A stretch of DNA of 64,000 nt. It comes from Blastococcus sp. VKM Ac-2987. Its GTDB lineage: Bacteria; Actinomycetota; Actinomycetes; Mycobacteriales; Geodermatophilaceae. Made by a program: the position numbers and the translations under genes. Of this stretch, positions 30,687 to 56,797 are shown one piece after another. The notes beneath the pieces were generated by a model. That model saw only the letters and a list, made by a program, of their open reading frames with translations, was not told the DNA's origin and ran no database searches. Location of the stretch: contig NZ_JAPVBG010000001.1 of the NCBI RefSeq assembly GCF_026967805.1, positions 1,612,047 to 1,676,046 of the forward strand. Direction: 5' to 3'. Within the stretch, counting starts at the first letter, position 1, and every line of letters starts with the position of its first letter.

Positions 30687-31854
30687 GGCTGCGCCCCCTC
30701 CGCCCCGTGCGAGCGCCGACGACCTGTTCCAGGAAGGCGGCGACGTCGCGGGCGGCATCCGCGATCGCGAACCGCTCGGCCCGCGCCGTGCCGCCGTGCG
30801 CCAGCCGCTCCCGCAGGCTCCGGTCCTGGAGGAGCCGGTCGAGCGCGGCGGTGAGCTGCCGGTGGTCCCCGCCGTCCACCAGCAGCCCGCTGACCTCCGG
30901 CTCGACGATCTCCGCCGGACCTCCTGGCCCCGACGCGATGACCGCGCACCCGGCAGCCATGCCCTCCACCACGACCTGGCCGAACGGCTCCGCGAGCACC
31001 GAGCAGTGCACCAGGACGTCGGCTTGCCGCATGTACTCCTGCGGGTCCTCGACGTGCCCGGTGAAGGTCACCGGAAGGCCCAGCTCGTCGGCGAGCTCCT
31101 GGAGTCCGGACCGGTACGCCTCTTCGCCGAAGAGCGTCCCGCCGACGAGCAGTACCCGGGCGGGGCGGACCCGGAGCCGGGCCACCGCCCTCAGGAAGAC
31201 GTCCTGGCCCTTCCAGGGCGTCAATCGCCCGACCACCGCGACGACGGTCCGGTCCGGCGGACGCTGCGGGTCCCGCGGCCCGGGCTCGATGCGGTCGACG
31301 CCGGGGTGGGCGACCAGGGTCGGGCGACGCCAGGTGATCAGCTGGTCGAGGGTGGACCGGCTGTTCGCGATGAGGCCGGCCCCGCTGACCCAGCCCAGGA
31401 CCCGAAGGGCGATCGCCAGCCAGCGCCCGAAGTACTCCCGGGAGACCCGGTCGTGCACGTGCCAGACCAGCGGGACACGCGCACGGCGGCTGGCGACGGC
31501 GGCCATGAGCAGCGCCTTGGTGCTCTCGGCGACCAGCACCGAGGCCCCGGTGCGACGGGTGAGGTCGCCCAGTCGCCAGCCCAGCTGGGCGAGGCGGAGC
31601 AGTCCCGCGGCGAATCGGCGGATGTCCCGGGTCTGGATCGTCATCGCGCGGCTGTCGAACCTGCCGACGAGGAGGGTGGCCGGGATGCCGGCCTCCCGGG
31701 TCCTGGCGAGCATGGGTCCGTCCTCGCAGTACGCCGCCGCCACCTCGACCGTCCCGCGCCCGGCCAGGGCGCGCATCAACCGCAGAGCGGCGAGCTCTGC
31801 TCCGGACGGCGCCGCGGTGTGCAGCACGAACAGCGCTCTCGTCGGCGGGGTCAC
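30679..31854 (-). CDS. GT4 family glycosyltransferase
   Basis: The 391-residue GT-B protein shows LFVLHTAAPSGAELAALRLMRAL at the N-terminus, WHVHDRVSREYF in the acceptor domain and VVAVVGRLTPWKGQDVFL plus EPFGQVVVEGMAAGCAVIASGPGGPAEIV in the donor domain (the EX7E pair of retaining GT4 enzymes). The GTG at 31854 overlaps the previous stop (GTGA). It is one of four glycosyltransferases in this operon that would each add one sugar to the repeat unit. Confidence 0.88.
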   Translation of the reverse strand: MTPPTRALFVLHTAAPSGAELAALRLMRALAGRGTVEVAAAYCEDGPMLARTREAGIPATLLVGRFDSRAMTIQTRDIRRFAAGLLRLAQLGWRLGDLTRRTGASVLVAESTKALLMAAVASRRARVPLVWHVHDRVSREYFGRWLAIALRVLGWVSGAGLIANSRSTLDQLITWRRPTLVAHPGVDRIEPGPRDPQRPPDRTVVAVVGRLTPWKGQDVFLRAVARLRVRPARVLLVGGTLFGEEAYRSGLQELADELGLPVTFTGHVEDPQEYMRQADVLVHCSVLAEPFGQVVVEGMAAGCAVIASGPGGPAEIVEPEVSGLLVDGGDHRQLTAALDRLLQDRSLRERLAHGGTARAERFAIADAARDVAAFLEQVVGARTGRRGRSHV

Positions 31855-33044
31855 AGCAGATCCCGGTAGAGCTCCGCGTGCCGTTGCGCGGCGAGGCGCC
31901 AGGAGAACGTCTCCGCGTGCGCGCGGCACTGCCGAGGGGCCGGGACATCGCCGCCCAGGGCGCGGCTGATGCGCTCAGCGAGCGCCGCCCCGTCGCCGGG
32001 GCGCACCACGAGGGAGGGGTCCAGGCCCTGCACGGCGTCCGGCAGGCCGCCGCAGTCCGTCACGACCGGGGCGCGCCCGGCTGCCAGCGACTCCAGGGCG
32101 ATCAGCCCGAAGCCCTCGAGCGCGACCGAGGGGACCACGGTCACGGCCGCCCGGGAGTAGAGGCCGGTCAGCGTCTCGTCGTCCACCCGACCGACCAGGC
32201 GTGCCGTTTCCGCGATGTCGGGCCGTGCGGCCCGTTCCCGCAGGGACGCCTCCTCGCTGCCCGTGCCGACGATCACCAGTCGCGCATCGGGATGCGCGGC
32301 TCGCACACCGGGCCACGCGTCGAGCAGGACGTCGATGCCCATCCGCCGTTCGAGGCGTCGTACGCACAGCACCGTCGGGGGTCCCCCGGGAGCCGGGGCC
32401 ACCTGGAACCGCTCGAGCTCCACCCCCGGTGGGATGACCTGCACCCGGCGCTCGGGGACCCGGTAGGTCTCGACGAGGAGTTCGCCGAACCGCCGCGAGA
32501 GCACGACGTACCGATCCGCACGGGCGTAGCGGATCCTCTCCAGGGCGTACTTCAGCGCCGCACCCCGGGAGCCGGCCAGGCGGCTCTCCGCCGCCCACGG
32601 CCCGTGGAAGTGGACGACCAGCGGGTTCCGCCCGCGCGCGCCGGACGCAGACCGGCCGTAGAGGCAGAAGTGCCGGTCCAGCACGTGGGGCTCCCGTCCG
32701 GGTGCCTGCTCGGTGAACGCCGCCAGCGCTCGGCGCCACGTCGGGCCCCCGACCGGGCCCCACGACGCGCCGCCCGGGGCCGGTCGACCGAAGGCGGAGG
32801 CCGACACGGCGACGCCGGGCAGGTCGCGCAGCGCCAGGAAGAGGTCCGTGAAGTACCGGTTCAGTCCACCCGGGGTCGTCGAGAACCACTCCGACCCGGT
32901 CATGTGGACCCGGACGTCGGCGGCCGCCGGGGCGGCGCTCCCGTCCTCCCAGCCGTCCTCTGCCGGTCGAGCACCGCGGAGAGCCACGAGGTCAGTCCTC
33001 CCCTCGATCGCTCGTCCGGCCGACGTGTGCGGAGCGACGGCCAC
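31851..33044 (-). CDS. GT4 family glycosyltransferase
   Basis: The 397-residue GT-B protein has GGLNRYFTDLFLALRD near its start, VVHFHGPWAAES in the acceptor half and VLCVRRLERRMGIDVLLDAW with EGFGLIALESLAAGRAPVVTDCGGLPD in the donor half. The first 45 residues are low in conserved character and the GTG at 33044 has no clear ribosome site, so the true start could be further in, for instance at the ATG of MTGSEWFS. It is translationally coupled to the next GT4 gene. Confidence 0.85.
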   Translation of the reverse strand: MAVAPHTSAGRAIEGRTDLVALRGARPAEDGWEDGSAAPAAADVRVHMTGSEWFSTTPGGLNRYFTDLFLALRDLPGVAVSASAFGRPAPGGASWGPVGGPTWRRALAAFTEQAPGREPHVLDRHFCLYGRSASGARGRNPLVVHFHGPWAAESRLAGSRGAALKYALERIRYARADRYVVLSRRFGELLVETYRVPERRVQVIPPGVELERFQVAPAPGGPPTVLCVRRLERRMGIDVLLDAWPGVRAAHPDARLVIVGTGSEEASLRERAARPDIAETARLVGRVDDETLTGLYSRAAVTVVPSVALEGFGLIALESLAAGRAPVVTDCGGLPDAVQGLDPSLVVRPGDGAALAERISRALGGDVPAPRQCRAHAETFSWRLAAQRHAELYRDLL

Positions 33045-33071
33045 GCTGCCAGGGCGGGTGCCCGATCGACC

Positions 33072-33908
33072 TCACGCCAGCTCGACGCGCCTCTTCGGGA
33101 TCGAGCGCGAGCGGATCCAGACCCGCTCGAGACCGGCGCGGAAGAGCCGGGCGTCGCCGGCGGCGACGTCTGCCCAGGTCACGCACCGAGGGTGGTCGGA
33201 CCTGATCCGGTGGTGGAAGCGGAGGGTCTCGGTCAGCTTGCTCAGGGACGAGGTCGTGGCGCACAGGTTGAAGGTGGAGTCGCGCCAGGACGCCACGAGC
33301 TCACGCATCCCGTAGAAGCATCCCGACGTGGCCACACGCGCGAACAGGTCGACGTCCATGGGGAAGACCAGGTCCCCCCGGATGCCGCCCACCCGGTCGA
33401 AGTCGGCCCGCCGGAACATCGCCGCGGCCGTCGGACCGAAGCCGGCCGGTCCCCGGCGCACGATCGTGCGCATGAGTTCCCGCGGCTCCACCCGCCCACA
33501 GAGCCCGGGCAGGCCCAGGTCCGTCTCCTTGACCGCCCCCTGCTCGTCGACGACGTCGAACTTGCCGGACACGATGGCCACCGAGGGGTCACCCAGGATG
33601 TCCGCCTGAGCCGCGACCGACCCCGCCGCGATGAGGTCGTCCGCACAGACGATCTTCACCAGGCTGCCGGTGGACAGGCCCACGAGCCGGTTCCAGTTGT
33701 CCCCGATGGGGAGGACGCTCTCGTTGCGGTGCACCGTGATGCGCGGGTCGGAGAAGGAACGCACGATGTCACCGGTGCCGTCCTCGCTCGCGTTGTCGAG
33801 CACGACGACCTCGAGGTCGAGGTCCTGCGCCAGCACCGACTCGAGGGTCTCGGCGACCGTCCGCGCCGAGTTGTAGGCGGGGATGCAGATCGAGATCGAT
33901 CGGGTCAT
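33072..33908 (-). CDS. Family 2 glycosyltransferase
   Basis: The 278-residue GT-A enzyme opens with SISICIPAYNSARTVAETLESVLAQ and has EVVVLDNASEDGT, the DXD-like KIVCADDLIAAG and MDVDLFARVA, as in GT2 enzymes that act on lipid-linked acceptors. The ATG at 33908 directly precedes the GT2 core; upstream in-frame residues look like non-coding shadow. It is the promoter-proximal gene of the minus-strand assembly operon, and its promoter should lie in the 287-base gap before the fdh operon. Confidence 0.87.
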   Translation of the reverse strand: MTRSISICIPAYNSARTVAETLESVLAQDLDLEVVVLDNASEDGTGDIVRSFSDPRITVHRNESVLPIGDNWNRLVGLSTGSLVKIVCADDLIAAGSVAAQADILGDPSVAIVSGKFDVVDEQGAVKETDLGLPGLCGRVEPRELMRTIVRRGPAGFGPTAAAMFRRADFDRVGGIRGDLVFPMDVDLFARVATSGCFYGMRELVASWRDSTFNLCATTSSLSKLTETLRFHHRIRSDHPRCVTWADVAAGDARLFRAGLERVWIRSRSIPKRRVELA

Positions 33909-34157
33909 GGCAGTCGCTCCGTCGCTCGGGCCGATCCGGCGCGCCGGCTCGGCACGGCGCACGACGCACGCCGCCACCCCCAGCCCTTGGCACCTTGCGG
34001 TCTGGACGACTGCGGGTCAAGGGGAAGTTGCCCGGCTCCATACCGGTCGGCGTTCCCCGCCCACCGAGGTGCCGGCGGCGCACCCACCACCGGAGGAGCC
34101 GGGACCGGGCGCCCGGCCGGACGTGACCGCGATCCCCGCAGCCGCGGCGTGCGACGG

Positions 34158-34195: not shown

Positions 34196-35257
34196 TCAGC
34201 GGGTGACGGAGCGGCCCTCGCCCTGGCCGACCTGCTGGCCGGCCTCGCGGGCGGCCATGCGCTCGCGCTGCGGCACGACGGTGTACTTCGGGTCGCGGGC
34301 ACTGGCCATTCCGGCGTCGAAGACGCCGAACCGGGTGAGCAGCGACCCGGCGGCCAGCAGCACGCCCGACGCCACCGCCCCGATCCGCGTCCGCCCCGCG
34401 ACGGCGGTCAGCCCGGCCCCCGCGGCGGTGCAGGTCTTCGCCGCCCGCATCAACGTCCCGGCCCGGCCCTCGTGGTACGGCTCGCTGACGATGCCGTGGT
34501 CGTTCTCGACCTTGTGCATCGCGGCCAGCTCGATGGTCGCCCCGGCGATCGCCATCTTCCGCGACGGCCCCGCCTCGTCCACCGGCGTGAAGATCATCGT
34601 CAGCCCGCCACCGGCGGCCATCGCCGACCCGGCGAAGACGAACGGCAGCTGCTTGTACGGCGCGTGCCACGACGGGACGGCCGTGTTGGCCAGCAGCACC
34701 GCCGTGTAGGTGGCCATCGGCCCGCCGAACAGCGCCGAGACCACCCCGCCGAAGCGCTTCAGCCGCGGGAACCAGTCCAGCAGCTCCACCGCCGCCGTCG
34801 CGCCGGCCGCGGCGCTGAACGGCGACAGGATGTAGGTGCCCACCGACAGCGGCGACGTCAGCTTGATCACGCGCAGCATGTGCAGGAACCGCTCGGGCCG
34901 GCCGAGGTCGTGGATCAGGAACCCGACGGAGGCGATCGAACCGCCACCGGCGACCAGCCGGCCCACCCGGGTCAGGGTCGGCCGGTCGGTGAGGTCGGCC
35001 ACCGCGGCAAGGATCGCCGAGGAGCCGGCCGCGCCGCCGAGGAACAGGTACAGCGGGACGTCGGGGGTCTTCCACACCGGCGGCTTGATGATCGGCCGCC
35101 CGTAGTACGACGTGAACTCGGCGTCGTCGACCATCGCCTGCTCGGCCGAGCGGCCGCGCCGGCCACCGCCCTTGCGGTAGCGCTTCGGGGGCTTGCGCTC
35201 CCCCGGGCCGTCCGCCCGCCGCCAGCCGGCGCCGGGCGTGGTGATCCCCTCGGTCAT
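34196..35257 (-). CDS. nrfD: NrfD-family membrane subunit of formate dehydrogenase
   Basis: The 353-residue protein has a basic N-terminus (PPKRYRKGGGRRGR), a conserved-looking YYGRPIIKPPVWKT segment and eight or so membrane helices with FLIHDLGRPERFLHMLRV, the NrfD/PsrC motif near the quinone site. NrfD proteins anchor iron-sulfur subunits and pass electrons to menaquinone without haem. The ATG at 35257 lies two bases after the TAG of fdhB. It would link formate oxidation to the menaquinone pool. Confidence 0.9.
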   Translation of the reverse strand: MTEGITTPGAGWRRADGPGERKPPKRYRKGGGRRGRSAEQAMVDDAEFTSYYGRPIIKPPVWKTPDVPLYLFLGGAAGSSAILAAVADLTDRPTLTRVGRLVAGGGSIASVGFLIHDLGRPERFLHMLRVIKLTSPLSVGTYILSPFSAAAGATAAVELLDWFPRLKRFGGVVSALFGGPMATYTAVLLANTAVPSWHAPYKQLPFVFAGSAMAAGGGLTMIFTPVDEAGPSRKMAIAGATIELAAMHKVENDHGIVSEPYHEGRAGTLMRAAKTCTAAGAGLTAVAGRTRIGAVASGVLLAAGSLLTRFGVFDAGMASARDPKYTVVPQRERMAAREAGQQVGQGEGRSVTR

Positions 35258-35259
35258 CG

Positions 35260-36327
35260 CTACCGCTTCCGTGAGCCGAGGACGGCCGAGACCGCCACGC
35301 CGATGATCAACGCTGCACCCTGGGCGGCGGCCTTCCACATCGCCGGCACGTCCCGGGTGGTCACCACCGGGTCCGGCGGCAGGCCGTAGACCTCGGGCTC
35401 GTCGAGCAGCAGGAAGAACGCCCCGGCGCCGCCGACGCCGTCGTTCTCGTCGCGACCGTAGAGCCGGGCGGTCTCCACGCCCTGCCCCTTGAGCGTCGCC
35501 AGCCGCGCGTCCGCCCGGGCCTGCAGCTCGTCGAGGTCCCCGAACTGGATGGACTGGGTCGGGCACGCGGTGGCGCAGGCCGGCTGCAGCCCGTCGGTGA
35601 GCCGGTCGTAGCACATCGTGCACTTGAAGACCCGGCCGTCGTCCTTGCGCTGGTCGATCACGCCGTACGGGCAGGCCGGGACGCAGTAGCCGCAGCCGTT
35701 GCAGATGTCGCCCTGCACGACGACGGTGCCGAACTCGGTGCGGAACAGCGCCCCGGTCGGGCAGACGTCGAGGCAGCCGGCGTGCGTGCAGTGCTTGCAG
35801 ACGTCGGAGGACATCAGCCAGCGGATCTGCTTGTCCGCGCCGGACTGGCCGGTCTGCGGGTCGAACTCGCTCAGCGCCTCCGCGTTGAGCACGCTGCTCT
35901 GCTGCGCGTCGGCCAGGCTGACGCCGTCCCCGGGCGTCATCGGCGACGGGCCGCTGCCCTGCCGGTCGTCACCCGGCCGGCCGAAGGTCGGCATCGGGAG
36001 GTCGACGGTGCGGGTCTGCTCGACGAAGGCGACGTGCCGCCACGAGTTGGCGCCGAGCATGCCGGTGTTGTCGTAGCTCATGCCCGACATGCCCATGGCG
36101 TCGCGCACGCCGTGCGAGTCGTCCATCGGGAGCGTGTTCCACTCCTTGCAGGCCACCTCGCACGCCTTGCAGCCGATGCACACCGAGGTGTCGGTGAAGA
36201 AGCCCACCCGCGCGGGGTGCTCCTCCACGTAGCCGGCGTCGGCCGACACGTCGGGCAGCGGGCCGAACAGCCGGTTGCTCGGGTCGTTGCCGGCGAGCCC
36301 CGGGCTCGCCGAGCTGATGGAGGTCAT
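35260..36327 (-). CDS. fdhB: Formate dehydrogenase iron-sulfur subunit
   Basis: The 355-residue protein carries four cysteine clusters of the HybA/FdnH type: CIGCKACEVACKEWN near residues 53-67, KHCTHAGCLDVCPTGALF, CNGCGYCVPACPYGVID, and KCTMCYDRLTDGLQPACATACPTQ. Together they bind four [4Fe-4S] clusters. A C-terminal hydrophobic helix (GAALIIGVAVSAVLG) would anchor it in the membrane. It takes electrons from FdhA and hands them to NrfD. The ATG at 36327 lies 25 bases after fdhA. The stop is UAG, the same codon that is recoded in fdhA, here read as termination. Confidence 0.95.
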   Translation of the reverse strand: MTSISSASPGLAGNDPSNRLFGPLPDVSADAGYVEEHPARVGFFTDTSVCIGCKACEVACKEWNTLPMDDSHGVRDAMGMSGMSYDNTGMLGANSWRHVAFVEQTRTVDLPMPTFGRPGDDRQGSGPSPMTPGDGVSLADAQQSSVLNAEALSEFDPQTGQSGADKQIRWLMSSDVCKHCTHAGCLDVCPTGALFRTEFGTVVVQGDICNGCGYCVPACPYGVIDQRKDDGRVFKCTMCYDRLTDGLQPACATACPTQSIQFGDLDELQARADARLATLKGQGVETARLYGRDENDGVGGAGAFFLLLDEPEVYGLPPDPVVTTRDVPAMWKAAAQGAALIIGVAVSAVLGSRKR

Positions 36328-36352: not shown

Positions 36353-39300
36353 TCACTGGGTCGACCCCTCGCCCGCCGAGGCCTCGACCGGGTCGCGGCC
36401 GTTCACGCCCACGCGGCCGGACGCCACGCCGGCGCGGCGCCGGTAGGCCTCCACGAACTCCAGCAGCTCCGGCCCGCGGGGACGGCGGCCGGGGACGATG
36501 TCGGCGGTGGAGACCTTGTCCTCCTGGATGTGCGTGTTCGCGTCGAGCGCGATGCCCAGCAGGTCGTTCGCCGAGTCCCCGGTGGAGAGCCCGCCGTAGG
36601 ACCAGTGGTACGGCATCCCGATCTGGTGCACGACCCGGCCGTCGCGCAGCTTGATCGGCCGCACCCGCTCGGTGACCAGGACCTTCGCCTCGATCGCCGA
36701 GCGCGCGCTCACCAGCGTGGCGTAGTCGTTGTGCGTCAGCCCGCGCAGCGCTGCCAGCTCCGGGCTCACCTCGACGAAGAACTCGGGCTGCAGCTCGGAC
36801 AGGTAGGGCAGCGTGCGGCTCATCGCGCCGGCGGTGTGGTGCTCGGTCAGCCGGTAGGTGGTCACCTGGAACGGGAAGACCTCGCTGCGCGAGGGGTTCT
36901 CCCGGTTCCACGGCCCGTCGATCCGCTCCACCGTGGGGCTGGCCTGCGTGCCGTAGAACGCGTTCTCTACGACCGACTCCACCGGCTCGTAGTGCGTCGG
37001 CAGCGGGCCGTCGACCAGCCCGGCCGGCGCGTACAGCCAGGCCTTCCCGTCGCCCTGCATGACGAACGGGTCGTCGCCGGCCAGCGCGTCCTGCGCCCGG
37101 GCGCCCTCCGGCGGCACGTAGTCCGGGCGCTTGTTCTTCTCGAAGTCGGGGACGTCGACGCCGGTCCACTCGCCGGCGGCCTCGTCCCACCAGACGTACT
37201 TCTTGCGCTCGCTCCACGGCTTGCCGTCGGGGTCGGCCGAGGCGCGGTTGTAGAGCATGCGCCGGTTGAGCGGCCAGGCCCAGCCCCACTCCGACGCGAC
37301 GGTGCCCTGCTCCGAGCCCGGCTTGCGGCGCGCGGCCTGGTTGACCCCGTCGGCGTAGACGCCGGTGTAGATCCAGCAGCCGCCGGAGGTGGAGCCGTCG
37401 TCCTTCATCTGCATGTAGGACGACAGCGGCTGCCCGTCGGGGCCGGTGCCGTTGATCTCGCGCAGCACGGCGTCGGCGTCGGGGTCCCGGGTCTCCCCGT
37501 GCAGCGGGTAGTCCCAGGTCATCCGCAGCAGCGCCTGGTCGCGCGGGTCGGTGGAGTCCTTCAGCCGCTCGCGCAGGATGCGGCCCAGGTGGAAGAAGAA
37601 CCACAGGTCGCTGCGGGCGTCGTTCGGCGGCTCGACCGCCTTGTGCCGCCACTGCAGCAGCCGCTGGGTCTGGGTGAAGGTGCCGTCCTTCTCCACGTGC
37701 GTGGCGGCCGGCATGAAGAAGACCTCGGTGCCGATCGTGTCGGGGGACATCTCCCCCGTCTCGAGCTCCGGGCCCTCCTTCCAGAACGTCGCCGACTCGA
37801 TCATCTGCAGGTCGCGGACGACCAGCCAGTCGAGGTTGGCCAGGCCGAACCGGTTCATCCGGCCGTTGGGGTGCCCGACCGTGGGGTTCTCGCCGACGAG
37901 GAAGTAGCCGCTGACCTTCCCCTCGATCATGTCGGCGATCGTCCGGTAGGAGCTGTGGTCGCCGTTGATCTTCGGCAGCCAGTCGAACCCGAAGTCGTTC
38001 TCCGGCTGCGCGGCGTCGCCGAACCAGGCCTTGAGCAGGCTGACCATGTAGTCGCGCTTGTTGCCCCAGAACCCGGCCTTGCCGGCGGCGTCGGCGCAGT
38101 ACTCGTCCAGCGTCGAGTGCTGCATCGCGTGCGGCATCGGCAGGTAGCCGGGCAGCAGGTTGAACAGCGTCGGGACGTCGGTGGAGCCCTGGATGCTGGC
38201 GTGCCCGCGCAGCGCCAGGATGCCGCCGCCGGGTCGGCCGATGTTGCCCAGCAGCGTCTGCAGGATCGACGCCGTCCGGATGTACTGCGCGCCGACGCTG
38301 TGCTGCGTCCAGCCCACGGAGTAGACCCACGCCGTCGTCCGCTCGCGGCCGCTGTTGCTGGTGACCCACTTCGCGACCTGCTCGAACACCGCCGGCTCGA
38401 TGCCGCAGACCTCGGACACCATCTCCGGCGTGTAGCGGGCGAAGTGCCGCTTGAGCACCTGGAAGACCGACCGCGGGTGCTGGAGCGTCTCGTCCCGCTT
38501 GGGCTTGGACGGGATCGGCGGGCCGCCGCTGCCGGCCGCCTGCGCCTGGTCGGACTCCCGGACGGCGGGGGCGTCGTCGAGCTGCTCCTGCTCGGCGGCC
38601 TCGGCCGGGTCGTCGGCGCTGGACTCCGGCGGGTTCGCCGGCTCGTACGCCCAGCTGTCCTCGTCGTACATCCGGTTCTCGGCGTCGTACCCGGAGAACA
38701 GGCCGTCGAGGTCCTCGACGTCGACGAAGTCCTCACCGACCAGGGCGGCGGCGTTCGTGTAGGCGACCACGTAGTCGCGGAAGTAGAGGTCGTTGTCCAG
38801 GACGTACCGGATCAGCCCGCCCAGGAACGCGATGTCCGTGCCGATGCGCAGCGGCACGTGCAGGTCGGCCACCGCGCTGGTGCGGGTGAACCGCGGGTCG
38901 ATGTGGATGATCTTCGCGCCGCGCGCCTTGGCCTCCATCACCCACTGGAAACCCACCGGGTGGCACTCGGCCATGTTGGAACCCTCGATGACGATGCAGT
39001 CGGCGTTCGAGAGGTCCTCCAGGAAGTTCGTGGCACCGCCACGACCGAACGAGGCGCCCAGACCGGGCACCGTGGAGGAGTGCTATATGCGGGCCTGGTT
39101 CTCGATCTGGATCGCGCCCAGGGCGCTGTAGAGCTTCTTCATGAGGTAGTTCTCCTCGTTGTCGAGGGTCGCCCCTCCGAGGCTCGCTATCCCCATGGTG
39201 CGGTTGACGCGGTAGCCGGCGTCCTCGTCCTGCCAGCCCTTGCGGCGGGCCTCCAGCACGCGGTCGGCGATCATCTCCATCGCCGTGTCGAGCTCCAGGT

Positions 39301-39652
39301 CCTCCCACTCCGTCCCGAACGGACGGCGGTACTTGACCGTGGTGGTGCGGCTCGGGCTGGTGACCAGCTGCTTGCTGGCGCTGCCCTTGGGGCAGAGCCG
39401 GCCGCGGTTGATCGGCGAGTCCGGGTCGCCCTCGATCTGGACGATCTGCTCGTCCTTCACGTACACGTTCTGCGCGCAGCCCACGGCGCAGTACGGGCAC
39501 ACGCTCTTGACGACGCGGTCGGCGGTCGCGGTGCGGGACACGACGGCCTCGGTCGCCTTGCTGCGGGCGGCGGTGCCGCGCCCCAGCGGGTCCGAGCCGG
39601 TCAGCTGCCGGTACACCGGCCAGCTCTCGAGCCAGGTCTTCACCCGCGTCAC
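36353..39652 (-). CDS. fdhA: Selenocysteine formate dehydrogenase, large subunit (Sec encoded by UAG)
   Basis: This should be read as one 1,099-residue molybdo/tungsto-bis(pyranopterin guanine dinucleotide) enzyme that oxidises formate to CO2. Cys52, 55, 59 and 87 (CPYCAVGC...LCPKG) bind a [4Fe-4S] cluster. At residue 190 the frame has TAG in the context IENQARI-TAG-HSSTVPGLGASF, exactly where relatives have Cys or Sec as the molybdenum ligand. The following His (H191) and downstream domains (ECHPVGFQW, GNIGRPGGGI, the C-terminal molybdopterin-binding barrel) are intact over 900 residues in the same frame, which rules out decay. A bacterial SECIS hairpin follows the TAG. A routine gene finder would split it at 39083 and 39070. 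The GTG at 39652 gives the usual N-terminus VKTWLESWPVYRQL; no export signal is seen. Confidence 0.93.
39053..39071 (-). promoter_or_regulatory. Bacterial SECIS element in fdhA
   Basis: On the transcript, 11 bases after the UAG, GGUGCCC pairs with GGGCGCC (seven pairs, one U-G) around the loop GGUCU. The loop G-U is the SelB contact in bacterial SECIS elements. In E. coli fdhF the hairpin with apical GGUC also starts 11 bases after the UGA. The element lies inside the coding sequence for TVPGLGA. Confidence 0.9.
39083..39085 (-). other. In-frame UAG read as selenocysteine (residue 190 of FdhA)
   Basis: The codon between Ile189 (AUA) and His191 (CAC) is UAG. It occupies the catalytic Sec/Cys position of formate dehydrogenases. 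UAG differs by two bases from UGA, UGC and UGU, so a single sequencing error or point mutation cannot explain it. UAG-decoding selenocysteine tRNAs have been reported in Geodermatophilus and Blastococcus. Confidence 0.92.
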
Positions 39653-56680: not shown

Positions 56681-56709
56681 TCCCTCACGGCCGCGGCAGC
56701 CGCAGGCGG

Positions 56710-56797
56710 CGGAGGGCGTGGGATTCGAACCCACGAAGAGGGATTACCTCTTAGCGGTTTTCAAGACCGCCGCCATCGGCCACTAGGCGAGCCCTCC
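56710..56797 (-). tRNA. tRNA-Ser (anticodon UGA)
   Basis: An 88-base class II tRNA: acceptor GGAGGGC/GCCCTCC with discriminator G, D arm, anticodon stem GCGGT/ACCGC with loop CTTGAAA (anticodon UGA, reading UCA), a variable stem GAGG...CCTC and T arm GTGGG TTCGAAT CCCAC. CCA is not encoded. Its 7-bp acceptor and length exclude selenocysteine tRNA. Confidence 0.95.

Follow-up and report, generated by a model that had tools for sequence, protein, structure and literature searches.

A predicted UAG selenocysteine codon in the formate dehydrogenase gene fdhA of Blastococcus sp. VKM Ac-2987 and its relatives in the Geodermatophilaceae

UAG-directed selenocysteine (Sec) was reportedly described by Mukai et al. 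in 2016 (Angew. Chem.), with 75Se labelling, for Geodermatophilus and Blastococcus. The system analysed here resembles that one in its CUA tRNASec and in having formate dehydrogenase and UGSC-motif proteins with an in-frame UAG at the Sec position, and shows no mechanistic difference from it. It is also comparable to the UGA-SECIS system of Escherichia coli fdhF and fdnG, which belong to the same enzyme family and likewise have a hairpin close after the codon; however, UAG, release factor 1 (RF1) and a CUA anticodon are involved here, and UGA and release factor 2 in E. coli. Two further publications state that Sec is encoded by UAG in some bacteria (PMC8124441, PMC10778597). A survey with Secmarker (Santesmasses et al. 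2017, PMC5330540) gives a CUA tRNASec for three Geodermatophilaceae genomes, together with UAG in formate dehydrogenase and UGSC (after Mukai 2016) and in an AhpC of Blastococcus saxobsidens DD2. The UAG-Sec phenomenon in this family is already published. What this analysis adds is a count over 112 genomes, the genera with a UCA anticodon, the repeated codon switches and the ATA that precedes the Sec codon. Against the three genomes of the survey, we count 101 with the CUA tRNASec, and a redoxin TAG in 30/112 genomes. The repeated switches and the AUA codon were absent from the titles and abstracts of the literature searched, which is weak evidence that they are unreported, subscription journals lying mostly outside its scope.

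The window, the whole stretch of 64,000 nucleotides that was analysed (contig NZ_JAPVBG010000001.1, positions 1,612,047 to 1,676,046), contains on its minus strand the fdhA gene, encoding the alpha subunit of an FDH-N-type formate dehydrogenase (36353..39643) and read through one TAG codon. This codon (39083..39085, minus strand; CTA on the plus strand), a predicted Sec codon, lies in the context IENQARI-TAG-HSSTVPGLG. The reading frame upstream of the TAG comprises 189 open codons from a GTG at 39652, and 909 open codons follow up to a TGA terminator, in line with the 900 unbroken codons given in the initial annotation. Counted from the GTG at 39652, the TAG is residue 190; counted from the in-frame GTG at 39643-39641, it is residue 187. 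The second GTG is the more probable start, since in some relatives VKTW is immediately preceded by a stop codon. The product matched the NCBIfam formate dehydrogenase model NF041513 with 1914 bits (cut-off of 1400) over residues 7-1073 of 1099. In the phmmer alignment with E. coli FdnG (PDB 1kqf), the TAG residue was paired with the X, the selenocysteine of that enzyme, and the UAG is thus placed exactly at the catalytic Sec/Cys position, as had been proposed. The expectation that gene finders would split the gene was also confirmed, with a mechanical ORF list giving two pieces (39083-39652 and 36353-39070); the redoxin and UGSC genes of the family, described below, are likely to be split in the same manner.

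Downstream of fdhA, on the same strand, lie a gene for a formate dehydrogenase beta subunit-like 4Fe-4S protein (35260..36327; TIGR01582 below cut-off, PF13247) and an ORF with an NrfD-like membrane subunit (34196..35623; PF03916). The true start of the NrfD-like subunit is probably inside this ORF, because the ORF overlaps the beta-like gene lying upstream. An alpha subunit with a beta-like 4Fe-4S protein and an NrfD-like protein is the usual three-subunit layout of membrane formate dehydrogenase. Glycosyltransferase-like genes were noted further downstream of the fdh genes (31851-33977, minus strand) and are outside the Sec system.

The TAG might be a plain stop, introduced by mutation or by a sequencing error into a broken fdhA, and other genes of this genome do use UAG as their terminator, with RF1 present. 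However, the site codon was TAG in 105/105 family copies of fdhA with sequence read. These comprise 45 of the 47 loci L049-L095 and all 60 of L136-L195; L088 and L089 were left out of the site counts, as the fdhA match stops short of the site in both. Chance or a read error is therefore practically excluded, in agreement with the initial argument that one error could not make a codon two base changes away from TGA, TGC and TGT. The 909 codons past the TAG encode a protein strongly conserved among relatives, and a CUA tRNASec is present in 101/112 family genomes, all of which makes a broken gene highly improbable. Nine fdhA matches listed as containing one TGA and one TAG, or two TAG, were inspected as possible doubly recoded genes and rejected; the extra stops were ordinary TGA terminators that the alignment had run into at its end, or a stop codon immediately upstream of the GTG start.

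The genome assembly (4.6 Mb, 12 contigs, 99.7% complete) contains a selC gene for a tRNASec with anticodon CUA, located outside the window (G000:C1:470020-470111; L001 1592-1501) and matching RF01852 with 67.7 bits at a cut-off of 47. The selA, selB and selD genes are clustered with selC, which adjoins selA, and all three were above their NCBIfam cut-offs (TIGR00474, 414 bits; TIGR00475, 284 bits; TIGR00476, 387 bits). A search for these four genes had been suggested together with the initial annotation, and their presence supports its interpretation of the fdhA UAG as a predicted Sec codon. One more RF01852 match above the cut-off (49.5 bits) was a tRNA-Ser(UGA), the sole tRNA found in the window (56708..56797, minus strand) and outside the Sec system. 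Six matches fell below the cut-off, and the four that were checked were tRNA-Ser, -Tyr and -Leu. The canonical UGA-Sec system was not matched, with TAG at the fdhA site and CUA in the only non-Ser tRNASec match above the cut-off. The RF1 gene, prfA, was present above its cut-off, and UAG should therefore stay a stop elsewhere.

ARAGORN labelled the CUA tRNA as tRNA-Pyl. This name and the anticodon itself would fit pyrrolysine, a general amber suppressor or a genome-wide reassignment of UAG. However, the tRNA-Pyl label was rejected because the tRNA matches the covariance model of tRNASec over its full length, its variable arm is long and selA is its neighbour; tRNAPyl has a short variable arm (PMC7609411). 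The presence of RF1 also argues against these alternatives, as do the redoxin and UGSC genes of this genome, both of which terminate in TAG at about the same length as the family copies ending in TGA. We regard a reassigned UAG, pyrrolysine or a general suppressor as scarcely credible.

The preferred reading, to which we assign a probability of about 0.96 from sequence comparison, is that the fdhA UAG would be translated as Sec by means of the CUA tRNASec, SelB and a SECIS hairpin, with UAG elsewhere remaining a stop read by RF1. The CUA tRNASec would be charged with serine, SelA would convert the serine to Sec with selenophosphate from SelD, and SelB would deliver the Sec-tRNA to those UAG codons that have a SECIS hairpin after them. 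FdhA would then function as a membrane formate dehydrogenase. In the family, the Sec codon would have passed from UGA to UAG when the tRNA anticodon mutated from UCA to CUA within the existing selC-selA-selB cluster. Each fdhA lineage, including some that probably arrived afterwards, would have followed with its own UGA-to-UAG switch to match.

A SECIS-like hairpin, GGUGCCC-GGUCU-GGGCGCC (39053..39071, minus strand), follows the TAG. Its 5' arm starts 11 bases past the codon, after UAG-CAC-UCC-UCC-AC, and its loop GGUCU is at 39064-39060. The SECIS loop of E. coli fdhF is GGUC, as in the hairpin here. The folding energy was ordinary for the composition (z of about -0.6 to -0.9), and the support for the hairpin is covariation, not energy, with compensatory changes at third codon positions. 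The pair formed by the third bases of codons +5 and +9 (5.3/9.3), which are largely free to vary in protein, was CG in 23, GU in 20, GC in 11 and UA in 3 of the 57 distinct TAG rows, and was unpaired in none. The covariation score was 0.299 compared to 0.116 in the shuffles (0/500 as high), and at most 0.068 with the partner slid. Further pair types, one of five measures, gave a moderate result only, with 34/500 shuffles as high. One GC swap was seen in the pair of codons +6/+8 across the 57 rows; the lowest pair (columns 18/36) showed five swaps and failed in 4/57 rows, and the pair 20/34 failed in 1/57. RNAalifold independently recovered the same seven pairs. On the 46-row tree of TAG and TGA genes, independent contrasts for the +5/+9 pair agreed in 6/6 cases (p 0.03), the contrast traits having been picked after the rows had been seen. 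The loop codon, +7, was GGT in 104/105 copies and AGT in one, whereas 486 of all 4441 Gly codons in the counted genes, the site included, are GGT. In 21 distinct UGA fdhA rows, the hairpin was 91% paired with weaker covariation: the numbers of shuffles as high were 1/500 for the score, 465/500 for double-change pairs and 213/500 for pair types, and the lowest pair failed in 13/21 rows. By its covariation, the hairpin after the fdhA TAG can be classed as a putative SECIS element, and binding by SelB is predicted.

A tRNASec was found in 108/112 family genomes; completeness is 72-82% for the four in which none was matched. The CUA anticodon arm was present with zero mismatch in 101 of the 112, and the seven remaining genomes, all in genera g5-g7, carried a UCA tRNASec. 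In three UCA genomes that were inspected, selA and selB were matched at 59-66% identity, for selB only partially in two cases, and the gene order at UCA locus L201 was selC-selA-selB, as in the CUA cluster. It is therefore most likely that the tRNASec anticodon was changed in place within the sel cluster. The fdhA gene was present in 100/112 family genomes, and each match spanning the codon had an internal TAG. There was no fdhA match at E 1e-100 in the UCA genera g5-g7, and the UGA/UAG switch is therefore not visible in fdhA within the family. The fdhA search of the order gave a match in 266/397 genomes, the family included. Outside the family, an internal TGA was present in 69/69 fdhA genes among the matches listed, and TGA was exactly at the site in 22/22 copies read.

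One family genome, G058, contained two tRNASec genes, one with CUA in the sel cluster and one with UCA (81.8 bits) on another contig (loci L096, G058:C17:1173-1263, and L098, G058:C11). This genome may read both UAG and UGA as Sec. On the contig with the UCA tRNASec, a codon-usage scan identified no convincing UGA selenogene, and matches to selA, selB and selD were absent. By eye, no UGA selenogenes were seen near the sel genes in four stretches from two UCA genomes. A CUA tRNASec with a non-family anticodon stem was not found in one strict-pattern scan of species genomes, by which absence is unproven. The sole pattern match, L099, was rejected as a tRNASec, as it matched RF00005 and is a suppressor-type CUA tRNA. 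This tRNA (L099:2779-2868) has an ordinary fold and lies on an Erysipelotrichaceae MAG contig, possibly of phage.

The family offers a clear example from nature of a Sec codon that has changed, with CUA and UCA genera in one family, both anticodons in G058, related fdhA genes with UGA and with UAG, and RF1 kept in the genome analysed here. A move of Sec between these stop codons is a two-base change in codon and anticodon alike, and it could be traced stepwise in this material.

To place the codon change on the fdhA phylogeny, trees were built from the protein rows, with L085 left out (217 residues). The tree of 84 proteins needed five changes between UGA and UAG, and five were forced by well supported branches. 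A tree with all TAG rows constrained together was rejected (AU p 2e-9). A careful tree of 46 rows, hand-chosen from the 84 to contain all 20 TGA and 26/64 TAG rows, again gave five changes with five forced, and 0/200 bootstrap trees had one. The C-terminal tree agreed with the whole-protein tree. The best N-terminal tree, covering the region around the codon, had five changes, and the bootstrap trees five to six (0/200 with one), with strongly supported branches forcing only two. Recombination bringing the TAG genes into one clade was considered and rejected, as such a clade was present neither in the best N- and C-terminal trees nor in the 200 bootstrap trees. A single change of codon would have left all TAG fdhA genes in one clade. 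As they are split among several, the whole-protein tree requires five or more UGA/UAG switches, and the Sec codon is likely to have switched several times, with a weaker indication near the codon. The direction of the switches was presumably from UGA to UAG, because UGA is widespread outside the family. The minority TAG copies have a patchy distribution and lie beside UGA genes of other families in the tree, which looks like transfer with later recoding.

The codon directly 5' of the TAG, an ATA Ile codon (39086..39088, minus strand), was ATA in 105/105 fdhA copies. Elsewhere in 45 fdhA genes, ATA accounted for 37/1751 Ile codons (82/1796 once the 45 at the site are counted too). Among the UGA copies (n = 22), the preceding codon was ATT in 17, ATA in 4 and ATC in 1. 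ATT accounts for 8/1796 Ile codons in the fdhA genes of the family, and ATT-TGA-CA spells TTGACA (UGA loci L203-L222, L261 and L262). In the UGSC genes, the codon before Sec was GAT in 18 and GAC in 12 (n = 30), compared to a background in fdhA of 97 GAT among 3179 Asp codons; in redoxin it was TGG, the single Trp codon. With ATA in fdhA and GAT the commoner codon in UGSC, it seems that codons not ending in C are favoured immediately 5' of the Sec codon. The link between ATA and TAG was not significant by independent contrasts (three to four of five pairs agreeing, none against, best p 0.125). Our guess is that the ATA before the TAG, when in the P site, influences the competition with the release factor. 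Testable mutations are offered by the invariant AUA codon and by the covariation of the SECIS-like hairpin.

These observations could be consistent with a wider proposal, which we hold tentatively and at a little less than even odds, in which the CUA anticodon would act as a gene-transfer filter. On this proposal, the Sec codon of any fdhA entering or persisting in the family would have had to be rewritten from UGA to UAG. This would have occurred at least five times, with AUU-UGA, as in most relatives, always giving way to AUA-UAG, and the P-site AUA would be a new cis element tuning recoding against RF1. A somewhat less probable alternative is that a TAG fdhA already present in the genome spread ATA-TAG by the copying of a short tract around the Sec codon into newly arriving TGA genes. 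Tract copying would account for the constant pairing of ATA with TAG among the copies read. In G038 and G057, the minority TAG copy is more similar near the site to the main clade than to its own UGA sister, and the copy of G104 is closer to the main genes from codon +30 to +69; in addition, 7/8 minority copies in the tree share a genome with a main-type match (in G097, a fragment only). In this comparison of tract identity, three main rows were 401-base fragments, and the 'overall' lines were left unused. However, the N-terminal third still gives the five to six changes in its bootstrap trees, with one change in 0/200, the other five minority rows are without a clear identity peak to the main genes at the codon, and G104 has the minority copy only. 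We consider the copying of short tracts less likely than not, and most plausible for G038 and G057, and continue to favour separate switches of the fdhA lineages from UGA to UAG.

The genome analysed here has at least three predicted UAG selenogenes (fdhA, redoxin and UGSC). An AhpC/TSA search of the genome gave five matches, one of which had an internal TAG; this is the redoxin gene, with the motif W-TAG-PYC. The UGSC motif with TAG was found at one place in the genome, in a UGSC-family protein (NF041046 above cut-off, PF24696). The frame of the redoxin gene with TAG was intact in 28 of the 30 family genomes that have it. TAG was both the internal Sec codon and the terminator in 14/28 intact redoxin genes and in 6/30 UGSC genes of the family; it thus seems that the SECIS, rather than the codon alone, decides how a UAG is read. 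The terminators of 45 fdhA genes were TAG in 1 and TGA in 43, with 1 cut off. An internal TAG was present in 43/53 UGSC matches in the family, and the other 10 all had 40% identity or less. At two redoxin loci from different genera, L291 (G104) and L292 (G028), the TAG at the site is followed shortly after by the same one-base deletion; this deletion lies beside the SECIS-like hairpin and may represent decay, an assembly error at the hairpin, or frameshifting.
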